DNA of 64,000 nt from Halogeometricum sp. S1BR25-6 (lineage in GTDB: Archaea > Halobacteriota > Halobacteria > Halobacteriales > Haloferacaceae). A program made the position numbers and the translations under genes. A model generated the notes under the pieces. The model did no database searches. It was not told the origin of the DNA and saw only the letters and a program-made list of their open reading frames with translations. Shown here piece after piece: positions 15,751 through 26,607 of the stretch (the stretch's first letter is position 1; each line of letters begins with the position of its first letter). Location: contig NZ_JAMQOP010000004.1 in assembly GCF_031624495.1 (NCBI RefSeq), forward strand, positions 372,001-436,000, written 5' to 3'.

Positions 15751-16602
15751 TTATCGGCGTCGTCGTCGGACGGCGACGAGCGCCGCCACTAACGCCGCTG
15801 CGGCGATAACGGCGGTCCACGTCGGGACGTCCTCCGGACCGAGTCGGAGCGGTTCATCGTTCGGGACCGATCGTTCGCCCTCTGTGGGCGCGTCCAGCGC
15901 CGCCGGCGCGTCGCCGGACGTCTCGGCGTCGTCGTCGAGCGCAACGTCGTCCGCGCCGTCGGCCGATTCGGTGACCGGATCGTCGTCGGCCGCGGGACCG
16001 TCGGACGCGTCGTCGGAGGGGGAAACGGCCGCGTCGTCCGGTTGGTCGACCGAGTCGTCCTCGGCCGCTGAATCGTAGACGCCCGAATCGGTCGCGCCGA
16101 CGGCGTCGACGGTCACGGACGCCGCGCTGACGTCGGTCGGGTAGGGGGACCCGTCCTCGTCGCCGAGCGCCGACACGGATACCGAGACGTCGGTCGTTCC
16201 GGGGGCGACCCCCGAGAGCGTGACCGCCGCGACGGTGACGGGGCCGGCGTCGTCCGTGTCCATCAGCGCGGCCTTGAGGTCGGCGCTCGCGCCGTCCTGC
16301 GCCACTTCGACCGTGTGCAGTTTCGGCTCCCCGAGTAGCGTCACGTCCGTGATGGTCGCGACGGAGGAGTCCGAGAGGCCGACCGCGAGGTCGTACGCGC
16401 CGACGCCGCCGTCGACGCCGTCGACCACGAGGTGGACGGTGGTCGTCTCCGAGACGGCCATCCGTTCGGTCGCCGCGTCCACCCGCACGGTCGTCACCCC
16501 GGCCGTCGCCGTCGCCGACGCCGAGACCACGGCGAGGAGGACGAACGCCACCGCAACAATCCGAACGAGGCGTCCGGCCGCGCTGCGAGACGTGTTTACC
16601 AT
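15751..16602 (-). CDS. Secreted cohesin-like domain protein with C-terminal membrane anchor, 283 aa
   Basis: A signal peptide (LVRIVAVAFVLLAVVSASATATA) is followed by a beta-rich domain at about 35-165: TTVHLVVDGVDGGVGAYDLA, SDSSVATITDVTL, and VAAVTLSGVAPGTTDVSVSV. This spacing (early strand with GxxxxV, then GGVGAY, late VTLSGVAPGTT) is that of the cohesin fold. A 90-residue Asp/Ser/Ala linker leads to a C-terminal helix (WTAVIAAAALVAALVAV) and RRRRR stop-transfer tail, so the domain is displayed outside the cell. It starts 24 bases after the stop of the neighbouring PKD-cohesin-dockerin gene and shares its SDSSV(A/G)TITDV motif. An operon partner role is inferred. Confidence 0.65.
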   Translation of the reverse strand: MVNTSRSAAGRLVRIVAVAFVLLAVVSASATATAGVTTVRVDAATERMAVSETTTVHLVVDGVDGGVGAYDLAVGLSDSSVATITDVTLLGEPKLHTVEVAQDGASADLKAALMDTDDAGPVTVAAVTLSGVAPGTTDVSVSVSALGDEDGSPYPTDVSAASVTVDAVGATDSGVYDSAAEDDSVDQPDDAAVSPSDDASDGPAADDDPVTESADGADDVALDDDAETSGDAPAALDAPTEGERSVPNDEPLRLGPEDVPTWTAVIAAAALVAALVAVRRRRR

Positions 16603-16626
16603 CGTCGGACCTCCGTCGTCATGGTC

Positions 16627-18336
16627 TCAGGCGACCTCGTTGTAGTACAGCCACTGCACGTCCAGGACGTCGAACTGTCCGTCGCCGTTGAAGTCGAAGG
16701 CGTCGGGGTTCTGCGTCGTGGTCGGGCCGTTACGGGCCGCGAACAGCGTCTGCACGTCGAGCACGTTCACGACGCCGTCGCCGTTGACGTCCTCGTGGAC
16801 GCCGTCGCCGTCGGCGTCGATCGCGGGACCGGCGGAGTCGCCGACGACGAGGGTCGAGACGGTCAGCGTCGCGCCGTCGACTTCGGTGACGTCGTACGCC
16901 TCTCCGGACTCGGTGCCGAGCGTCTCGACGTCGAGGACGAGGTCGGTCTCGCCCTCGGCGACGCCCTGCACCGAGACGGTGCCGAGCGTGACCGCGCCGG
17001 TGTCGTTCGTGTCGACGAGGACCGCCTCTATCGTGACAGACGAGCCGTCCTCGGCCATCTGCACGTCCGAGAGGCTTCCGTCGCCCGCGAGTTCGACGTC
17101 GGTGATGGTACCGACGCTCGAATCCGAGAGCGAGACGGTGATGCTGTACGCGCCGACGCCGCCGGCGGCGGGGTCGACCACGATGTCGTACGAGCCGGTC
17201 TGGTTCACGCCGAGAAGGTCGTCCTCGGGCGAGAGCGAGACGGTCGTCGAGCCGGTTTCGACCGGCGCGTCGGACTCGTCGGCTTCGACGGTCACGGTGA
17301 CCGTGTCGGTGTCGATGCCGCCGTTACCGTCGGCGACTTCGACCTCGAAGGTGAGCGTCGCGTCGTTCTCCACGTCCGGTGCGGTGAACGTCGGGGACGC
17401 CGCCGAGGCGTCCGAGAGCGTGACAGACGGGCCACCCGTCTGCGTCCACGCGTAGGTGAGCGCGTCCGAGTCGGCGTCCGAGGAGCCCGATGCATCGAGC
17501 ATCACGGACGTTCCCTCGTCGGCCGTCTGGTCCGCACCGGCGTCAGCGACCGGCGAGGTGTTCGTCGGTTCGTCCGGTTCGTCGGCTTCGACCGTCACGG
17601 AGACGGTGTCGGTGTCGATGCCGCCGTTACCGTCGGCGACTTCGACCTCGAAGGTGAGCGTCGCGTCGTTCTCCACGTCGGGCGCGGTGAACGTCGGGGA
17701 TGCCGACGAGTCGTCCGAGAGCGAGACCGACGGACCGCCCGTCTGCGTCCACGCGTAGGTGAGCGCGTCCGAGTCGGCGTCCGAGGAGCCCGACGCATCG
17801 AGCGTCACGGAAGCGCCTTCGTCGACCGTCTGGTCGGCGCCGGCGTCAGCGACCGGCGAGGTGTTGGGCTGTTCGGTCGTGACGGAGACGGTCGTCGTGT
17901 CGGTGGTGCTTTCGCCACCCTCCGTGGACGCCGTCACGTCGACGTCGTAGTCCCCGGTCGCGGCGTCGTTCGGGACGGCAACCGTGTACTGCACGGTGTC
18001 GGAGCCCGAGACACTCGTACCGGCGAACCAGAGCCAGCCGTCGGGGCCGGGGATGAACTGGTTGCCCGCACTTCGACTAGTGACTGTCCAGCCGTCCGGG
18101 AGGTCGGTCTGCAGCCCGATGCTGGCAGCTTGGATCTGCGCGTCGTCGACGCCGACCTCCGTCGTGAACGTTATCGTGTCACCGGGGGAGACTGTCGTAC
18201 TGTTCGCCTGCTGCGAGACGGTTACGCCGTCGACCGCCGCGACCGTCCCGATCGGTCCGAAAACCGAGAGGACGAGCGTGAGCGCGACGAGTGTGGCGGC
18301 CGTCTTCGTGTACCGCTTCTGTGTCTTGTTTTTCAT
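16627..18336 (-). CDS. Secreted PKD-PKD-cohesin-dockerin protein, 569 aa
   Basis: Start at ATG 18336 gives a classical signal peptide (about residues 1-34). Order of parts: a beta domain (37-155); two nearly identical PKD/K319L-like repeats (158-252 and 259-353), each beginning TSPVADAGADQT and containing DASGSSDADSDALTYAWTQT; a cohesin-like domain (362-495) with GGVGAYSITVSLSDSSVGTI and LGTVSVQGVAEGETDLVL; and a C-terminal type-I dockerin-like pair of calcium loops (507-569), DADGDGVHEDVNGDGVVNVL and FDFNGDGQFDVLDVQWLY. There is no C-terminal membrane helix, so surface attachment would rely on other proteins such as the anchored cohesin-like neighbour. Upstream in-frame codons past 18336 lack the signal and are rejected. 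Confidence 0.75.
   Translation of the reverse strand: MKNKTQKRYTKTAATLVALTLVLSVFGPIGTVAAVDGVTVSQQANSTTVSPGDTITFTTEVGVDDAQIQAASIGLQTDLPDGWTVTSRSAGNQFIPGPDGWLWFAGTSVSGSDTVQYTVAVPNDAATGDYDVDVTASTEGGESTTDTTTVSVTTEQPNTSPVADAGADQTVDEGASVTLDASGSSDADSDALTYAWTQTGGPSVSLSDDSSASPTFTAPDVENDATLTFEVEVADGNGGIDTDTVSVTVEADEPDEPTNTSPVADAGADQTADEGTSVMLDASGSSDADSDALTYAWTQTGGPSVTLSDASAASPTFTAPDVENDATLTFEVEVADGNGGIDTDTVTVTVEADESDAPVETGSTTVSLSPEDDLLGVNQTGSYDIVVDPAAGGVGAYSITVSLSDSSVGTITDVELAGDGSLSDVQMAEDGSSVTIEAVLVDTNDTGAVTLGTVSVQGVAEGETDLVLDVETLGTESGEAYDVTEVDGATLTVSTLVVGDSAGPAIDADGDGVHEDVNGDGVVNVLDVQTLFAARNGPTTTQNPDAFDFNGDGQFDVLDVQWLYYNEVA
17281..17865. repeat. Direct repeat encoding two near-identical PKD modules
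   Basis: The segments 17587-17865 and 17281-17562 encode two PKD-like modules that differ at only a handful of residues (for example SVSLSDDSSASP versus SVTLSDASAASP). The copies are similar in DNA as well as in protein, pointing to recent duplication or gene conversion. Confidence 0.8.
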
Positions 18337-18665: not shown

Positions 18666-21600
18666 CTACTGCGAGCCACCCTCCGTCGTGAGAATCTCGA
18701 TGGCTCGAACCTCGGGGTTCTCCGCCGAGCCCTTCTCGAAAGCGATAGTGACCGTGCCGTCGCCGTTCTCGGTCACGGTGAAGCTCTTCATCGTCCCCGT
18801 CGCGTGGCCGACGTCGGCCACCGGGTCGTACTGCGTGAGGACCTGCTGGCCCTCGACGGAGACGTTGAACGCGCGGTCGCCGGGTTCGCTCGCTCCGGAG
18901 AACGAGTTGGCGAAGTACAGACGCACTTCGACCTCCTGACCCGAGTCCGCCGCGAACTCCCACGTCATCGGTCCGTAGCGCTCGGTGTCGAACACGGCGT
19001 CGGGCGTGGACGACGGAACGGTGTCGTCAGGCGTGACGTCCGCGCCGGCGGCGTAGTTGCCGGCGTCGGGTCCGACCGAGGCGAGGTACGGCGAATCGGT
19101 GCCGGTCGCACCGACCCACTCGGGACCGTCGTCGGTGGCATCGAGCGCATCCCCGCCCGCGTTCACGCGGTAGAGGACCTGCGCACCCGACGAACCGTCG
19201 TCGCCCGCGCTCTCGTCGTACTTCAGCACGACGACGTTCGAGGTGAGGCCGGTGTCGGCGTCGCCGTCCTGTACGGCGGCGACGAAGTGATTGAAGCCGC
19301 CCTCGGCACCAGAGCTCGACGTGTTGATGAGGGAGACGTCGACCGTCGCCTCGCCGTTTCCGTCGAGTTGGACGGTCTGGTAGTCGACGTTCTCGGCCGT
19401 GTTGGCCTCGAAGTCGACGAGTTCGTAGCCGTTCGCCTGGTTGGCGAGTTCGAGCTGTCCCTCAACGTGGAGCAGGGAAACCGTCGCGCCGGCGGGACCG
19501 GAGACCGTAACGGTCTGGTCTGCCTGCGAGACGGTCGCCGCGCCGTGCTGTGCGTCGAGCGCGCTCGAGTCGAGCGAGACGCCGTCGACGCCGAGCGTCG
19601 GCGCGGGGGCGACGTCGGCCTTCGCGGCGGCTTCCGCGCCGCCGTCGGTGCCGTCGCCGAACAGCGCCGTCGTCTGCGTGCTGCCGTCGGCGTACTCGAC
19701 CGTGACGGTCGCACCGGTCATCTCTAACCCGGAGACGGAGCCGGCCGCGCCCGTGCCCTGCGCGTTCTTGATGCTGGTCGGGTCGATGTCGACGGAGAAG
19801 GCGAACGTCTCGCCGGCGTCGAAGTCGTCGAACGTCGCCGTCAGTTCGTCGTAGCCGTCGGCGCTGCTCTGTCCGTCGTGCGGTGCGGCGAACGACCCGC
19901 CCTGCAGGCCGGTCGCACTCGCGCCGCTGTCGGGGGAGAAGCCCTTCGAGCCGGAGTCACCGGCGGTGCCGTCGGGGTCGAAGACGACGTCCGAGAGCAC
20001 CGCGGTGCTCAGGTCGTAGGTGACCGAGGTGATCTGCTCGTCCCCAGTGTTCGTGATCGACAGCGAGTCACCGCCGTAGGTGCTCGCGTCGATACCGCTG
20101 TTCGCGGTGACCGCGAAGTCGGCGGCGGCTGTGGAGTCGCCGTCGTCACCGGAGCCGTCGACCTCAGTCACCGTGAACGCCGAGAGCTTCGCGTTGTCCT
20201 CGACGGTGGCGAAGTCAACGTTCAGTTCGCCGTCGGTGACGTTTACGACGAACGTCTCCGTGGTCGCGGCGTGCGCGCCGCCGGCGGTCGCATAGATGTC
20301 GTAGTCGTTCAGGACCTGCTGGCCCTCGATGGAGGCGTCGAAGACGCGGTCGCCCTCGCCGCCGTCGTTCGCGACACCCTGGTAGAGTTCGGCGAACTGC
20401 AGGGTGACCTCGTACTCACCGTTCTCGACGGGGACGGCGTACGAGAAGTCGCCGTACCGCTCGGTGTAGTACAGTTCGTCGTCCTGCGTGTTCGCTATCT
20501 CGGGGGTCGCCGGCGTGCCCGCGTTGCCCGTCGTGAACGTCTCGCCGCCGTTGAAGTTCGCGTCGGCCGCGTAGACCGTTCCGTCGGCCGCGGCGTACTC
20601 CGGACCGCCCGCGTTCACGGCGAAGACGACGTCACCGGACTGGCCGTCGTCGGTGCCGTCGCCCGCGCTCTCGTCGTACTTCAGGACGACCACGTCGGAG
20701 GCGAGGCCCATGTCGCCCGAGGCCTCACCGTGCGCGGCCACGAAGTAGTTGTAACCGGCCTCGTCGCCGTCGTCGGCCGAGCTAGTCAGCGTGACCGGCA
20801 CCGTCGCCTCGCCGTTCGAGTCGAGGGTGACGGTGTAGTACTGGACGTCGACCGCGTTGTTCGCTTCCAGGTCTTCGACGTCGTAGCCGCCGTTCGGGAC
20901 GTTGCTCAGCGCGAGTTCGCCCTCGACGCGAACGAGCGTGACGGTCTCGCCGGGCTGACCGGTGACCGTGACGGTCTGGTCCGCCTGCGAGACGGTCGCC
21001 CCGTCGTGGTAGTCGTCAAGGACGTCGGTGTCGAGCGAGACGCCGTCGACGCCGAGCGTCGGCGCCGGTGCCTCGTCATCGGTCACGACGGCGGTCGCGC
21101 CGGCGACGCTGCCGTCACCCATCAGTTGGGTGGTCTGAGTCGTGCCGTCCTCGTAGGTGACAGTGACCGTCGCGCGAGCGAGTTCCAGACCCGAGACCGG
21201 ACCGGCCTCCTGAGAGCTGATCGTGGCACCCTTGATGCTGGTCGGGTCGTTGTCGGCCCAGAACGTCGCCGTCTCGCCCGACTGGAAGTCGTCGAACTCG
21301 ACGGTCATGACGTCGTAGCCGTCGTCGGCGTTCTGGCCATTGCGCGGCTGGGAGAACGCTTCGCCGGTGCCGGGTTGGGTGACGATGCCCGTTCCGCCGT
21401 CGCTGGCGATGTTGAGCCCTTCACCGGTCGGGTCGCCCGCGGTTCCCTGCGGGTCGAACACCATGTCCGGCAGCGTCGCCGTGCTCAGGTCGAACGACAC
21501 TGAGGAGATGTTCTTCTCGCCGGTGTTCGTCACCTGGAACGTGTCGCCGCCGTAGGTCGACTGGTCGATGTTACCGCTGTCGGGCGTGATCTCGACCAGC

Positions 21601-24600
21601 GCCGAGCCGGTCGCGTCGCTCCCGTCGCCGTCGCCGACGGTAGCGCCGTTCGACCACACGTTGATCAGCTGCTGCAGTTCCGTAAGCGAGATAGTCTCGC
21701 CGCCGGTGTTCGGCACTTCGGAGCCCGACGACCAGAGGGTGATCGCCCACTGGAGCTCGCCGAGCTGGATGGTCGCGTCGTCGCCGTCGCCGTGACTCGC
21801 GACCGCCTGTACGACGGTCAGGTTACCGTCTCCACCGTCAGTGTCGGTGTCCTCGACCGTGACGTTCACGATGTCGGTCGCAGAGTCCTCGCCGTCCGAG
21901 ACGCTCAGCTGAAAGGTGAACGTCGCGTCGCCGTCCACGTCGGGGGCGACGAACGGCGCCTGCTGACCGTCGCTCATGTCGAGCAGTCCGGACGGGCTCC
22001 CGGCCGTCTGCGTCCACGTGTAGCCGAGCGCGTCGCCATCCGCGTCGGACGAACCGGACCCGTCGAGGGTGACCTGCTGGCCCTCCTCAACGGTGACGTC
22101 CGCGCCGGCGTCGGCCGTCGGCGGCGTGTTCGCGGGCGGGTTCACGTAGTCGACCGAGATGTCCGTCCACGTCGCCGGGAACGCGCTCGCGCCGTTGGAC
22201 GTCGAGATGACGCCCACCGCCGGCGCGACGCCGTCGGACGAGTCGAACCAGCTCGCCGGCACCGCCGTGGTGTCGACCTGGGTCGTCTCGCCGTCAATCT
22301 CGTACTCGGCGGTGACTGCGAACTCCTCGACGCCGTTGTTCGGCGCGGGATCGGTCGTCGGGTCCACGGTCATCCGAAGCGTCGGAGAGCCGCCCGCGAC
22401 GGCGCTGTCGCTGGTGGTGCCCTGATCTTGGAATGTGTCGTCGACTTCCTTCGCGAACTGGACCCCACCGGAGCCGCCGTCGGCTGCGGCGACCAGTTTC
22501 ACGTAGTCCGACTGGTCACCAGTACCGATGAACAGACCGGCCGACTGGTAATTAGCCGGGTTTTCCGGGAAGCTGCTCACCGTCGTCTCGACGGTGAACG
22601 GCTGGTCGGGCGTGTCAACACCGAACTGGAAACCGTACTGCTGCGTGTTGGTGTCCGAGTAGGCGTCGCCGTTCGGGACTCCTTCGACCGTCAGCACCTC
22701 AGCGGCGCCGCCGACGGTCATCTCCGTCGGGTCGTACAGCTCCTGGTAGTCCTGCCCGTTCGTCATCAGTCCGGTCCAGCCCTGACCGCTCTCGCCGAAC
22801 AGACCGAGTTCGGAGAAGTCGTACTGGACGGGGAGCGTCGTGTCGAGACCGTTGTTCGGGTCGACGGCGAACGGGTCCTCGGTGTCGTCGAGACCGTCGT
22901 TGTCGTCGTCCGGGTCGTTGAGGTTCGACTCGCCGTCGCCGTCGAAGTCGACGGGCGTGGATGCCGCGGAACACGGGTCGGTGCCCGCGTCGAGTTCGTC
23001 GGCGTTGTCGTAGCCGTCGCCGTCCTCGTCGAGCGAGGCGTCGTCGGCGCCGGTGCACTGCTGCCCGTCGCCGCTACCGTCGGTGCCGTAGTCGACCGGC
23101 TCGAAGATCGTCACGTCGCCGCTACCGCGGTTCGCCGTCAGCACGATACCCGGGAACGGGCCGTCGTCGCCGACCGTCGCGATACCGAGCGGCTGCGAGC
23201 CGGTGTTGAACACCGTTTCGACGTTCGTCGCCGTCTCGCCGTCGGCGCTTAGCTGGATGCGCTTGACCGAGCCGCCGAGTTCGACCTGCAGGAGGTCCCC
23301 CTGCATCGCACTGCCGAAGTTCGAGGCGGTGTACTCGGCCGTGCCGCCGGTGGGACCGAACAGGACCTTGTCGCCGTTCTGGTCCACCATCGTGTTTGCG
23401 CTACCGGCGGGCGCGCCCGGGTCGGGCGACCCGCTCGTCGGCGGGATGTAGTCCGCCTCGGCCGGGTTCACCACACTCGCCGGAACGGGCGAGTTCGATT
23501 CCGTGATGTCGAACACCAGGTTCCCGTTCTCGTCGTAGATGTCCGCACCCGTCGGGTTCGCGCGGATAGGCGCGGCGTGGCCGCCGTAGACGCCCTCGTC
23601 GACCTTGACGAGTTCGTCGCTCTTCGAGTAGCTCCCGTCCTCGTTCGGGTGGTTCGTCACCGACGCAGCGTCGGCCACGATGTTCCCGCTGGCGTCGGCC
23701 GGTTGGCCACCCCAGCCGCCGTTCGGTCCGTGGTCGGCGGCGTAGATCTGGCCGCTCGTCGTGACGACGAGGTCGTACGGGTTGCGGTAGCCGGGCGAGT
23801 AGACCTGGACCGGCCCGTCTTCGACTATCTTGGCCTGGTTGATCCCGTCGTTCCCGCCGAAGGGAAGGTCGTCGCCGTCCGTCCCGTCGTCGTTCTGAAT
23901 CGTGGGGATGGCGTAGTAGAACTCCAGGTCAGGGTAGCTGCCGTCGTAGTTCTGGAGATTCTTCGCCTGGTAGTCGGCCTCTATCTGCGCGAGATCGACT
24001 TCCAGAATGGCGGCCGAGAGCGCGAACTCGGGGGTGTGTCCGAAGTTGTCGCCCGGCGCGCCCTTGTTCGTGTTCCCGCCCTGAGCGACGTACAGCGTGT
24101 CGCCGTCGGCCGAGAGGTCGAGTCCGTTGGTCGCGTGGTTCTCCTCGGACCGCGGCAGTCCGAGCACCATCACGTCGTGGTCGACCTCGCTCGATTGAAG
24201 CACGCCGTCGCTTCCCGGCGAGAGGGTCAGTCGAGAGATCGTACCGGAGTTCGTGTCCGTGTCGTCATCGTCCTGCCCCACGTCGATCGACGGGTCGCTG
24301 GAAGAAACGTAGACGATCGGATTCTCGGCCGTCCCGCCGACGGTCAGACCGGTGATCTGCCGGTCGTTCTCGCCCGCGTTGTACTCCCCGAAGTCGTCGT
24401 GGTTGGGAATCTGCTTGATCGCGTCGGTCGCGACCTGTCCGACGACCTCGTAGCTGTTGTCGCCCGTGCGCTCGACGTCGAGCACGTAGACGGTGCCGCT
24501 CTGCACCGAAACGTAGAAGCGCCCGTCGGGACCGACGTCGATAGCCGTCGGGTTACCCGCGCTGAACCCGTCGAGCTTGCTCTTCGTGAAGTCGGGGTCG

Positions 24601-25517
24601 ACCGCGCTCGCGCCGTCGCCGGAGAGCGACACCGTCAACGGGTCGTTCGACCCCGTGTGTGCGACGGAGAGTGTCGCGCTCGCGGAGTCGGCGCTCGACG
24701 GCGAGAACGTCACCGGAATATCCGTGGACTCGCCGGGGGCGAGCGTCGTCTGGGACGCCGACCCCGCCGAGAACGCACCGTCGCCGTCGACGGAGACCCC
24801 GTCGATGGCGATGCTGGTGTCGCCGTCGCCGCCGAGATTGGTCACAGTGACTGTCTGTGTCTCGGACTGGCCGCTGAGAACCGAGCCGAAGTTGACGCTC
24901 GACGGACCGCCGAGCGTGTTCGGTTCGGGCGTCGCCGGGACGATCTCGATGGCCGAGAGCTTCGCGTTGTCCTCGACGGTCGTGAGGTCGACGTCGATTG
25001 CGCCGTCGGAGGGCGTCACGACGTACGACTTCATCACGCCCGCGTCGTGGCCGACGTCAGCGTGGATGTCGTAGTCGTCCAGCACCTGCTCGTCCTCCAC
25101 GGAAACGTCGAAGAGTCGCTCTCCGTCGTCCTCGGCGTATATCTCGGCGAAGTACAGGCGGACCTCGTACTGCTGGCCGCTCTGCACGCCCTCCGAGAAC
25201 GTCCACTGCTGGTCGCCGTACACCTCGGTCTGGAAGACGCTCGCCGGCGTCCCCGAGGGAACGGACGGCTCCAAGGAAACGGCGTCGCCCGTCTGGTACG
25301 TCTCACTGCTTCCGGAGTGGTACTGCTGCCAGTCGCCGGACCAGTCCGGTCCGTCGACCGCTGAGACGTCTCCTCCGCCCGCGTTCACGCGGTAGAGGGC
25401 GTCTCCCGGTGCCGCCGCTGCCGTGCCCGAGAAGGCCACGGAACCGGCGACCACTGACGTGATCATTAGCACCGCTACTAGAACGGCGGTGATTCGGTTC
25501 GTCTCTCGTTCTATCAT
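18666..25517 (-). CDS. Giant secreted multidomain protein (malectin / sugar-dehydrogenase-like propeller / PKD / dockerin-like), 2283 aa
   Basis: Signal peptide 1-36 (VAFSGTAAAA). Parts in order: malectin-like domain 40-194; choice-of-anchor-D-like Ig domain 203-300; beta-propeller resembling glucose/sorbosone dehydrogenases 310-806 (RSEENHATNGLDLSADGDTL, PGYRNPYDLVV); thrombospondin-3-like calcium repeats 828-890 (DEDGDGYDNADELDAGTDPC); concanavalin-like domain 898-1126; PKD 1130-1222; dockerin-like tandem helix-loop segment 1232-1293 (LGELQWAITLWSSG, LTELQQLINVWSNG); a 310-residue module 1306-1615; malectin-like 1628-1785; the module again 1798-2102; malectin-like 2112-2277. Malectin domains bind sugars in known cases. 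There is no C-terminal anchor. It is probably a secreted carbohydrate-binding, perhaps sugar-oxidising, protein that could attach to cohesins through its dockerin-like part. Confidence 0.8.
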   Translation of the reverse strand: MIERETNRITAVLVAVLMITSVVAGSVAFSGTAAAAPGDALYRVNAGGGDVSAVDGPDWSGDWQQYHSGSSETYQTGDAVSLEPSVPSGTPASVFQTEVYGDQQWTFSEGVQSGQQYEVRLYFAEIYAEDDGERLFDVSVEDEQVLDDYDIHADVGHDAGVMKSYVVTPSDGAIDVDLTTVEDNAKLSAIEIVPATPEPNTLGGPSSVNFGSVLSGQSETQTVTVTNLGGDGDTSIAIDGVSVDGDGAFSAGSASQTTLAPGESTDIPVTFSPSSADSASATLSVAHTGSNDPLTVSLSGDGASAVDPDFTKSKLDGFSAGNPTAIDVGPDGRFYVSVQSGTVYVLDVERTGDNSYEVVGQVATDAIKQIPNHDDFGEYNAGENDRQITGLTVGGTAENPIVYVSSSDPSIDVGQDDDDTDTNSGTISRLTLSPGSDGVLQSSEVDHDVMVLGLPRSEENHATNGLDLSADGDTLYVAQGGNTNKGAPGDNFGHTPEFALSAAILEVDLAQIEADYQAKNLQNYDGSYPDLEFYYAIPTIQNDDGTDGDDLPFGGNDGINQAKIVEDGPVQVYSPGYRNPYDLVVTTSGQIYAADHGPNGGWGGQPADASGNIVADAASVTNHPNEDGSYSKSDELVKVDEGVYGGHAAPIRANPTGADIYDENGNLVFDITESNSPVPASVVNPAEADYIPPTSGSPDPGAPAGSANTMVDQNGDKVLFGPTGGTAEYTASNFGSAMQGDLLQVELGGSVKRIQLSADGETATNVETVFNTGSQPLGIATVGDDGPFPGIVLTANRGSGDVTIFEPVDYGTDGSGDGQQCTGADDASLDEDGDGYDNADELDAGTDPCSAASTPVDFDGDGESNLNDPDDDNDGLDDTEDPFAVDPNNGLDTTLPVQYDFSELGLFGESGQGWTGLMTNGQDYQELYDPTEMTVGGAAEVLTVEGVPNGDAYSDTNTQQYGFQFGVDTPDQPFTVETTVSSFPENPANYQSAGLFIGTGDQSDYVKLVAAADGGSGGVQFAKEVDDTFQDQGTTSDSAVAGGSPTLRMTVDPTTDPAPNNGVEEFAVTAEYEIDGETTQVDTTAVPASWFDSSDGVAPAVGVISTSNGASAFPATWTDISVDYVNPPANTPPTADAGADVTVEEGQQVTLDGSGSSDADGDALGYTWTQTAGSPSGLLDMSDGQQAPFVAPDVDGDATFTFQLSVSDGEDSATDIVNVTVEDTDTDGGDGNLTVVQAVASHGDGDDATIQLGELQWAITLWSSGSEVPNTGGETISLTELQQLINVWSNGATVGDGDGSDATGSALVEITPDSGNIDQSTYGGDTFQVTNTGEKNISSVSFDLSTATLPDMVFDPQGTAGDPTGEGLNIASDGGTGIVTQPGTGEAFSQPRNGQNADDGYDVMTVEFDDFQSGETATFWADNDPTSIKGATISSQEAGPVSGLELARATVTVTYEDGTTQTTQLMGDGSVAGATAVVTDDEAPAPTLGVDGVSLDTDVLDDYHDGATVSQADQTVTVTGQPGETVTLVRVEGELALSNVPNGGYDVEDLEANNAVDVQYYTVTLDSNGEATVPVTLTSSADDGDEAGYNYFVAAHGEASGDMGLASDVVVLKYDESAGDGTDDGQSGDVVFAVNAGGPEYAAADGTVYAADANFNGGETFTTGNAGTPATPEIANTQDDELYYTERYGDFSYAVPVENGEYEVTLQFAELYQGVANDGGEGDRVFDASIEGQQVLNDYDIYATAGGAHAATTETFVVNVTDGELNVDFATVEDNAKLSAFTVTEVDGSGDDGDSTAAADFAVTANSGIDASTYGGDSLSITNTGDEQITSVTYDLSTAVLSDVVFDPDGTAGDSGSKGFSPDSGASATGLQGGSFAAPHDGQSSADGYDELTATFDDFDAGETFAFSVDIDPTSIKNAQGTGAAGSVSGLEMTGATVTVEYADGSTQTTALFGDGTDGGAEAAAKADVAPAPTLGVDGVSLDSSALDAQHGAATVSQADQTVTVSGPAGATVSLLHVEGQLELANQANGYELVDFEANTAENVDYQTVQLDGNGEATVDVSLINTSSSGAEGGFNHFVAAVQDGDADTGLTSNVVVLKYDESAGDDGSSGAQVLYRVNAGGDALDATDDGPEWVGATGTDSPYLASVGPDAGNYAAGADVTPDDTVPSSTPDAVFDTERYGPMTWEFAADSGQEVEVRLYFANSFSGASEPGDRAFNVSVEGQQVLTQYDPVADVGHATGTMKSFTVTENGDGTVTIAFEKGSAENPEVRAIEILTTEGGSQ
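19212..21602. repeat. Duplicated 310-residue module plus malectin unit inside the giant gene
   Basis: Codons for residues 1306-1615 (20673-21602) and 1798-2102 (19212-20126) encode homologous modules sharing TYGGD, ITSVTYDLSTA-type strands, DPTSIK, APAPTLGVDGVSLD, ATVSQADQTVTV and VVLKYDESAGD. Each is followed by a malectin-like domain, so the C-terminal half is a tandem duplication of module plus malectin. The copies have diverged more than the PKD pair of the neighbouring gene, so this duplication is older. Confidence 0.8.
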
Positions 25518-25967: not shown

Positions 25968-26492
25968 CTACCGGGAGCGCGGGGACACAGAGAGAACTAA
26001 CAACGCGACGAAGACGACGCCGAAGGAAGCGACAACGGTGAGAGGTGACAGCAGTTCGGCGAAGAACCCCGCGACCAGGGCGAGACCGAACAAGGAGAGC
26101 GCAGCCGGGTAAGGAGTCGAGCGGCGAATCTCCTCCTCCTCCGGGAGTGCGAAGTCGAAGTCGAGGTCCGCCGCCGCCGCGGTGAGTTCGACGTCGACCC
26201 ACCGGCGGTCCGCTCGCACGAACCCGGCGTCGGCCAGCTTGACGAGGTGGTTCTGGTAGAGGGCCGTGTAGGCGCTCTTTCGCTGTGCGTGCGTGACCTC
26301 GGCGACCGAGATGCCGTGCTCCGCCGCGGCGACGTGTTCGGCGAGTTCGCCGATGGAGACGGGACAGCCGCACTCGCGGAGGTGCCGAAGTACGTGTCGT
26401 CGACGTGGGTTTCCGAGCATCTCGTAGAAGTCGTCCTCCTCGATATCGACCGGACCGTCGCCCCCACTGGACGACTGAATGGCTACCGACAT
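25968..26492 (-). CDS. Winged-helix (DUF7344-like) protein with two C-terminal membrane helices, 174 aa
   Basis: Residues 20-105 form a winged helix typical of haloarchaeal regulators: FYEMLGNPRRRHVLRHLREC, VSIGELAEHVAA, then AYTALYQNHLVKLADAGFV and a wing with a Trp-Val. An acidic linker leads to two hydrophobic helices (about 127-147 and 150-168) and a basic end, so the DNA-binding part would be tethered to the inner face of the membrane. The ATG at 26492 is used; AT-rich boxes lie about 19 and 33 bases upstream. The target is unknown. Confidence 0.7.
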   Translation of the reverse strand: MSVAIQSSSGGDGPVDIEEDDFYEMLGNPRRRHVLRHLRECGCPVSIGELAEHVAAAEHGISVAEVTHAQRKSAYTALYQNHLVKLADAGFVRADRRWVDVELTAAAADLDFDFALPEEEEIRRSTPYPAALSLFGLALVAGFFAELLSPLTVVASFGVVFVALLVLSVSPRSR

Positions 26493-26607
26493 GATACTAC
26501 GTGAGAAATAAAGATACATTGTTATATGAGCAGTACCGAAGTATCCGGAGTCGGGCGAGGGTCCAAGAATCGGAGCGAAGACCGCGACTAGAAGCGAAAC
26601 GAGGGCT

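Follow-up and report, generated by a model that had tools for sequence, protein, structure and literature searches.

The cohesin and dockerin operon

The window, i.e., the whole 64,000 nt stretch of DNA that was analysed, contains two adjacent minus-strand genes, separated by 24 nt, whose products P0002 and P0001 carry cohesin and dockerin modules. Positions and the basis of each assignment are in Table 1. As in the A. fulgidus pair discussed below, the gene of a protein with a C-terminal dockerin adjoins that of a cohesin protein. A first reading made from the letters alone (the sequence-only reading) had described P0001 as a membrane-anchored protein with a cohesin-like domain and P0002 as two PKD repeats followed by a cohesin-like domain and a C-terminal dockerin-like calcium pair. 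Both descriptions hold: P0001 displays a cohesin fold match together with a C-terminal membrane helix, and the P0002 modules are recovered by Pfam, by AlphaFold2/Foldseek and by the presence of two calcium loops. The two PKD repeats are identical at 86 of 93 positions. Absent from that reading were the P0002 N-terminal beta domain (residues 36-156), in the place of which some relatives have an extra cohesin, and the upstream P0003 gene, which is conserved together with the pair.

P0003 has no dockerin; its relatives in loci of the client type have one at the C-terminus. No dockerin remnant was seen by eye in the P0003-P0002 intergenic sequence, and the propeller-like region of P0003 has no match among PDB sequences. 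At about residues 1226-1290, P0003 displays two helix-like repeats, ATIQLGELQWAITLWSSG and ETISLTELQQLINVWSNG, which resemble a dockerin without calcium ligands. Further upstream is the gene of a DUF7344 protein, and three Halobellus loci have similar ORFs ahead of the operon.

Table 1. Features of the operon and its upstream neighbour, with positions in the window
Feature	Position	Strand	Basis
P0001, membrane-anchored cohesin protein, 283 aa	15751..16602	(-)	
P0001 C-terminal membrane helix and RRRRR tail	15754..15834	(-)	sequence
P0001 acidic, fast-evolving linker, residues 167-256	15835..16104	(-)	sequence; 49% identity to congener vs 82% for cohesin
P0001 cohesin, residues 31-166	16105..16512	(-)	AlphaFold2 pLDDT 93.6; VIA-align Z 15.8 to 1g1k, 14.7 to A. 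fulgidus 2xdh
P0002, adaptor/chain protein, 569 aa	16627..18336	(-)	
P0002 type I dockerin, residues 503-569	16630..16830	(-)	Pfam Dockerin_1 E 2.7e-10
P0002 calcium loop 2 DFNGDGQFDVLD, residues 548-559	16660..16695	(-)	pattern
P0002 calcium loop 1 DVNGDGVVNVLD, residues 516-527	16756..16791	(-)	pattern
P0002 cohesin, residues 362-497	16846..17253	(-)	AlphaFold2 pLDDT 95.4 (363-569); Foldseek; VIA-align Z 15.6
P0002 PKD repeat 2	17275..17562	(-)	Pfam
P0002 PKD repeat 1	17578..17865	(-)	Pfam PF22352/PF18911
P0002 N-terminal beta domain, residues 36-156	17869..18231	(-)	
P0003, secreted protein with three malectin, one choice-of-anchor-D type Ig and one PKD domain, 2283 aa, upstream operon gene	18666..25517	(-)	Pfam, NCBIfam, synteny
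DUF7344 winged-helix membrane protein, upstream	25968..26519	(-)	Pfam PF24035 E 2e-24

Identity of the modules

The two beta domains share the motif LSDSSV(A/G)TITDV, found as LSDSSVATITDV at residues 76-87 of P0001 and as LSDSSVGTITDV at residues 403-414 of P0002. The sequence-only reading had pointed to this likeness, and it extends beyond the motif: the full-length alignment score of 290 is far outside that of 500 shuffles (52 +/- 9, maximum 92). Nevertheless the two cohesins are only ~44% identical to each other, and thus their specificity may differ.

A Pfam search for both modules had been proposed, and it succeeds for one of them. The P0002 dockerin is recognised as PF00404 Dockerin_1, with 40.7 bits against a cut-off of 22.9, and displays the duplicated F-hand calcium loop of type I dockerins, i.e., two canonical 12-residue loops. 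Scans of the single P0001 and P0002 sequences with Pfam and NCBIfam name no cohesin. Sequence homology to cohesins is found through an intermediate. A profile built from 25 haloarchaeal domains of the window type matches solved cohesins weakly among PDB sequences (E 0.02-0.03). The same 25 align by hhalign with the Pfam-recognised haloarchaeal cohesins over 116 columns (probability 96.3%, E 1.4e-9), and that Pfam-recognised set matches many solved cohesins (best E 2e-10).

Structure models built by AlphaFold2 from alignments of contig homologues have a pTM of 0.85 for residues 363-569 of P0002 and 0.86 for residues 30-170 of P0001. In Foldseek searches with the P0002 model, PDB ranks 1-38 are all cohesins; with the P0001 model, cohesins are found throughout the best 50 matches listed. 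The A. fulgidus cohesin 2xdh is at ranks 4 and 6 of the two lists, and the P0002 cohesin aligns with it at a VIA-align Z of 14.8. Both domains thus display the nine-strand jelly-roll fold of cohesins by all three methods. Some other Ig-like fold, named beforehand as the outcome that would count against the cohesin assignment, did not occur. It should be noted that cohesin folds without known dockerin binding, TTHA1873 and CLIPPER, are also among the structural matches, and that a few such folds score 11-12 in VIA-align; thus the fold alone does not establish function. The window modules are almost certainly a cohesin in each protein and a dockerin in P0002.

Recurrence in relatives

A search with the cohesin-dockerin tandem as query retrieves 71 loci in named genomes. 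The haloarchaeal loci are from Halobellus, Halorubrum, Halorussus, Haloferax, Haloarcula/Halomicroarcula and Halorientalis, and those outside the haloarchaea are from ANME-1 (Methanophagales), Archaeoglobales, Methanomicrobiales and Bipolaricaulota. The pair is kept in Halobellus, Halorubrum, Halorussus, Haloarcula and others, where the gene of a ~2000-aa malectin/PKD protein (the giant) usually precedes it. The haloarchaeal loci that most resemble the window have the order giant, adaptor with one or two cohesins and a dockerin, and cohesin anchor with a membrane tail, with intergenic gaps of -4 to 83 nt in the conserved operon. Among the relatives, a hydrophobic C-terminus is found in nearly all short dockerin-free cohesin proteins and not in the cohesin-dockerin adaptors. 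The anchor and adaptor roles recur across genera.

In comparisons with congeners, identity is 84% for the P0002 cohesin against 82% for the anchor cohesin, and 76% against 71%. Both cohesins and the dockerin are conserved, and the P0001 linker and the P0002 N-terminal domain drift. Loci picked by the dockerin alone, which are mostly from methanogens and on small contigs, have a nearby cohesin in 3 of 34 cases. Thus linkage in cis characterises this type of operon and does not extend to dockerins at large.

Loci of Halorubrum kocurii and Haloferax (L113-L116, L120, L121) display up to five cohesin-dockerin proteins, one with macroglobulin-like domains, without a separate anchor in the vicinity; a mixed chain may form there.

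Covariation of cohesins and dockerins

The giant has a C-terminal dockerin, and the adaptor a second cohesin, in Halobellus rarus, Halomicroarcula rubra, Haloarcula pellucida, Halorubrum sp. Hd13 and congener G002. A dockerin-less giant is found with a one-cohesin adaptor in the window, G004, Halobellus rufus, Halobellus captivus, Halorubrum sp. Atlit-26R, 48-1-W and Halorussus marinus. In G024 the giant is also dockerin-less, and a separate 929-aa dockerin protein is found with a two-cohesin adaptor. A tree of 60 cohesins places the extra adaptor cohesins in one well-supported group (100/98). Dockerins with a GDAQ signature are present in 7/7 loci that have this clade and in 0/10 that do not (p 5e-5, a value that ignores phylogeny among related loci and refers to a pattern noticed after seeing the data). 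Both states, with and without client dockerin and extra cohesin, occur within the window genus and within Halobellus; thus either the traits changed in concert on more than one occasion or they were exchanged as a set.

At the genome level, a cohesin is present in 15 of 17 dockerin-bearing relatives, compared with 10 of the 43 that are dockerin-free (60 genomes, Fisher p 5e-6). Halobellus rufus and Halorussus marinus each have two window-type cohesins and no Pfam cohesin, and genome-wide searches with both dockerin profiles reveal one dockerin and no other in either. In Halocatena marina, a single protein carries the one window-type cohesin and the one window-type dockerin, and two further Pfam dockerins are present in the genome.

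The genome of the window itself has two window-type cohesins, one close dockerin, and two further, divergent dockerin-like proteins with FG-GAP repeats. The latter are 8 kb apart on contig C5 (272018-279799, L103); one carries a Pfam dockerin of divergent sequence, and the other combines a PKD domain with a weak match to dockerins. A second, Pfam-type cohesin/dockerin pair and another lone cohesin are located at C2:594264-594937 (L070, L101) and C3:24510-24791 (L084). They differ in detail from the window pair, and the C-terminus of the cohesin protein in the second pair is a PGF-CTERM-like tail.

A cellulosome in this genome was considered and rejected. No carbohydrate-active enzyme with a dockerin is found among the further dockerin proteins annotated, i.e., the two FG-GAP proteins (the genome count also includes one separate class-A pair protein), and no scaffoldin with several window-type cohesins is found, each protein having one.

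Proposed assembly and alternatives

The operon probably encodes an anchored socket and a self-linking chain of P0002. P0001 would provide the membrane-anchored socket, its cohesin, and P0002 would be a secreted stalk with one socket and a C-terminal plug, the dockerin. When loaded with calcium, the P0002 dockerin would dock in the P0001 cohesin, and P0002 would be fixed to the cell. The P0002 cohesin would in turn take the dockerin of a further P0002 molecule, and the resulting head-to-tail chain would display PKD and beta domains at the surface, beside the large, carbohydrate-binding P0003, any contact with which would be part of the same prediction. Docking in the anchor is predicted with considerable confidence, and for the self-chain the chances are about even. 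With two cohesins and one detectable dockerin, as in Halobellus rufus and Halorussus marinus, the only detectable sockets are those of the anchor and of the dockerin's own protein; thus the second cohesin is most simply explained by an anchored chain that links to itself. The sequence-only reading, which had also suggested a chain held by the anchored partner, was correct in its observations and mostly so in its interpretation.

Because the genome has two divergent FG-GAP dockerin proteins, a client in trans should also be considered. P0002 would then be a tether whose dockerin docks only in P0001 and whose cohesin takes dockerin proteins encoded elsewhere, e.g., the FG-GAP pair of contig C5 (one with the Pfam dockerin, one with PKD). 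An added adaptor cohesin does accompany an added client dockerin in relatives. However the adaptor cohesin is retained in Halobellus rufus and Halorussus marinus, where neither profile detects another dockerin, and of the contig C5 dockerins, both divergent, one is a weak match, so that a tether with outside clients appears unlikely. Still less probable is that the cohesin-fold domains bind something else, such as carbohydrate, glycans or the S-layer, the pairing being suggested by dockerin resemblance only. Cohesin-like folds without known dockerin partners exist, and the single window cohesin sequences fall below Pfam detection, but cohesins and dockerins co-occur in genomes and covary in loci, the A. 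fulgidus pair binds (PMC9705933), and dockerin-bearing GH5 enzymes adjoin the same cohesin type in Natrinema.

The adjacency of cohesin and dockerin in the P0002 chain, in a confident two-domain model (pTM 0.85), would also fit an intramolecular clasp, with the dockerin turned back onto the cohesin of its own protein until export or anchoring sets it free. The linker between them, however, consists of a few conserved residues and should hinder such folding back, and the CDCD forms of Bipolaricaulota and the CCD forms of haloarchaea do not suggest one-to-one masking; a clasp is therefore very improbable.

Larger assemblies in relatives

Halococcoides cellulosivorans (L182-L204) has 56 Pfam dockerins, and about 18 window-type and two Pfam-type cohesins in some ten proteins. 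Recognisable glycosidase domains (e.g., GH5, GH16 and GH43) are present in most of the ten dockerin proteins scanned. An archaeal cellulosome made of the same modules, unmentioned in PMC10267330, is likely the correct prediction for this species. In Natrinema salsiterrestre (L143 551-13620), dockerins are found on four GH5 proteins and one beta-helix/ricin-lectin protein, some of them below the Pfam cut-off and found by the dockerin profile. The cluster also encodes two cohesin proteins: one has two cohesins, FN3/PKD domains and a weak match to CBM5/12, and the other is an anchor with a single cohesin and a PGF-like tail. The predictions for both species thus place this cohesin type beside enzymes with dockerins, and it seems that in distant relatives these parts have been multiplied into enzyme assemblies resembling cellulosomes.

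Halobacteriales archaeon QS_4_69_34 (L131 6585-17524) has five dockerin proteins close together, and its unusual dockerin clients include MmgE/PrpD-like, rhamnosidase-like and GMC oxidoreductase-like proteins.

One haloarchaeal toolkit may have been used at several scales, an idea that we put forward tentatively and at slightly less than even chances. These would be a minimal self-polymerising chain (window, Halobellus rufus, Halorussus), two- or three-tier scaffolds with matched plug/socket types (Halobellus rarus, Haloarcula) and true cellulosomes (Halococcoides cellulosivorans, Natrinema salsiterrestre).

Comparison with known systems

The dockerins of Natronoglomus and Halococcoides have been read as substrate-binding, with no cohesin mentioned (PMC10963439), and haloarchaeal dockerins are described in the same manner, without cohesins, in PMC13260240. 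Neither module is named in a study that compares haloarchaea growing on cellulose (PMC10267330). Window-type cohesins are mostly below single-sequence Pfam detection; thus the haloarchaeal papers cited here report dockerins without sockets and call them substrate-binding. The Natronoglomus and Halococcoides enzymes carry type I dockerins of the same family as P0002, but the window has both halves. Neither haloarchaeal cohesins nor an archaeal cellulosome are reported in these papers, which come from the open-licence literature, and earlier reports may exist elsewhere; PMC9012536 and PMC10267330 are in line with the earlier statement that a cellulosome-like structure is not yet established for archaea. 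Once the sockets are recognised, archaeal cellulosome-like complexes become directly testable, both the minimal one of two genes and the large one of Halococcoides. A salt-stable, calcium-dependent self-linking pair, if true, would be a useful building block.

The cohesin fold, the type I dockerin and the logic of an adaptor plus an anchoring scaffoldin are common to the window and to the Clostridium thermocellum type of cellulosome. However the window operon is without glycosidase clients or a multi-cohesin scaffoldin, and its anchor is a membrane helix, whereas that of bacterial cellulosomes is SLH or sortase. Among ANME archaea, a dockerin protein can have as many as five cohesins (PMC9012536). 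As in P0002, one dockerin is found with one or more cohesins per protein, and a Methanophagales locus (L126) is retrieved by the window query. ANME differ in their many clients and in the number of cohesins, which reaches five in a single protein; the window set is the minimal form.

A. fulgidus reportedly has two cohesins and one dockerin, both cohesins binding the dockerin (this is said to be the finding of Voronov-Goldman in 2011). By experiment, the dockerin of ORF2375 (residues 432-506) binds the cohesin of ORF2376 (residues 29-162) with calcium present (PMC9705933). The C-terminal dockerin and the N-terminal cohesin of that pair are at nearly the same positions as in P0002 and P0001. However the cohesins are 14-18% identical, and the window has a PKD stalk, an upstream malectin protein and a halophile host. 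The window pair, with its predicted binding, is the haloarchaeal counterpart of A. fulgidus ORF2375/2376 and not a cellulosome. To the archaeal cohesin-dockerin pairs already known outside cellulosomes it adds a form that belongs to an operon conserved among haloarchaea, in which plug and socket types visibly match.
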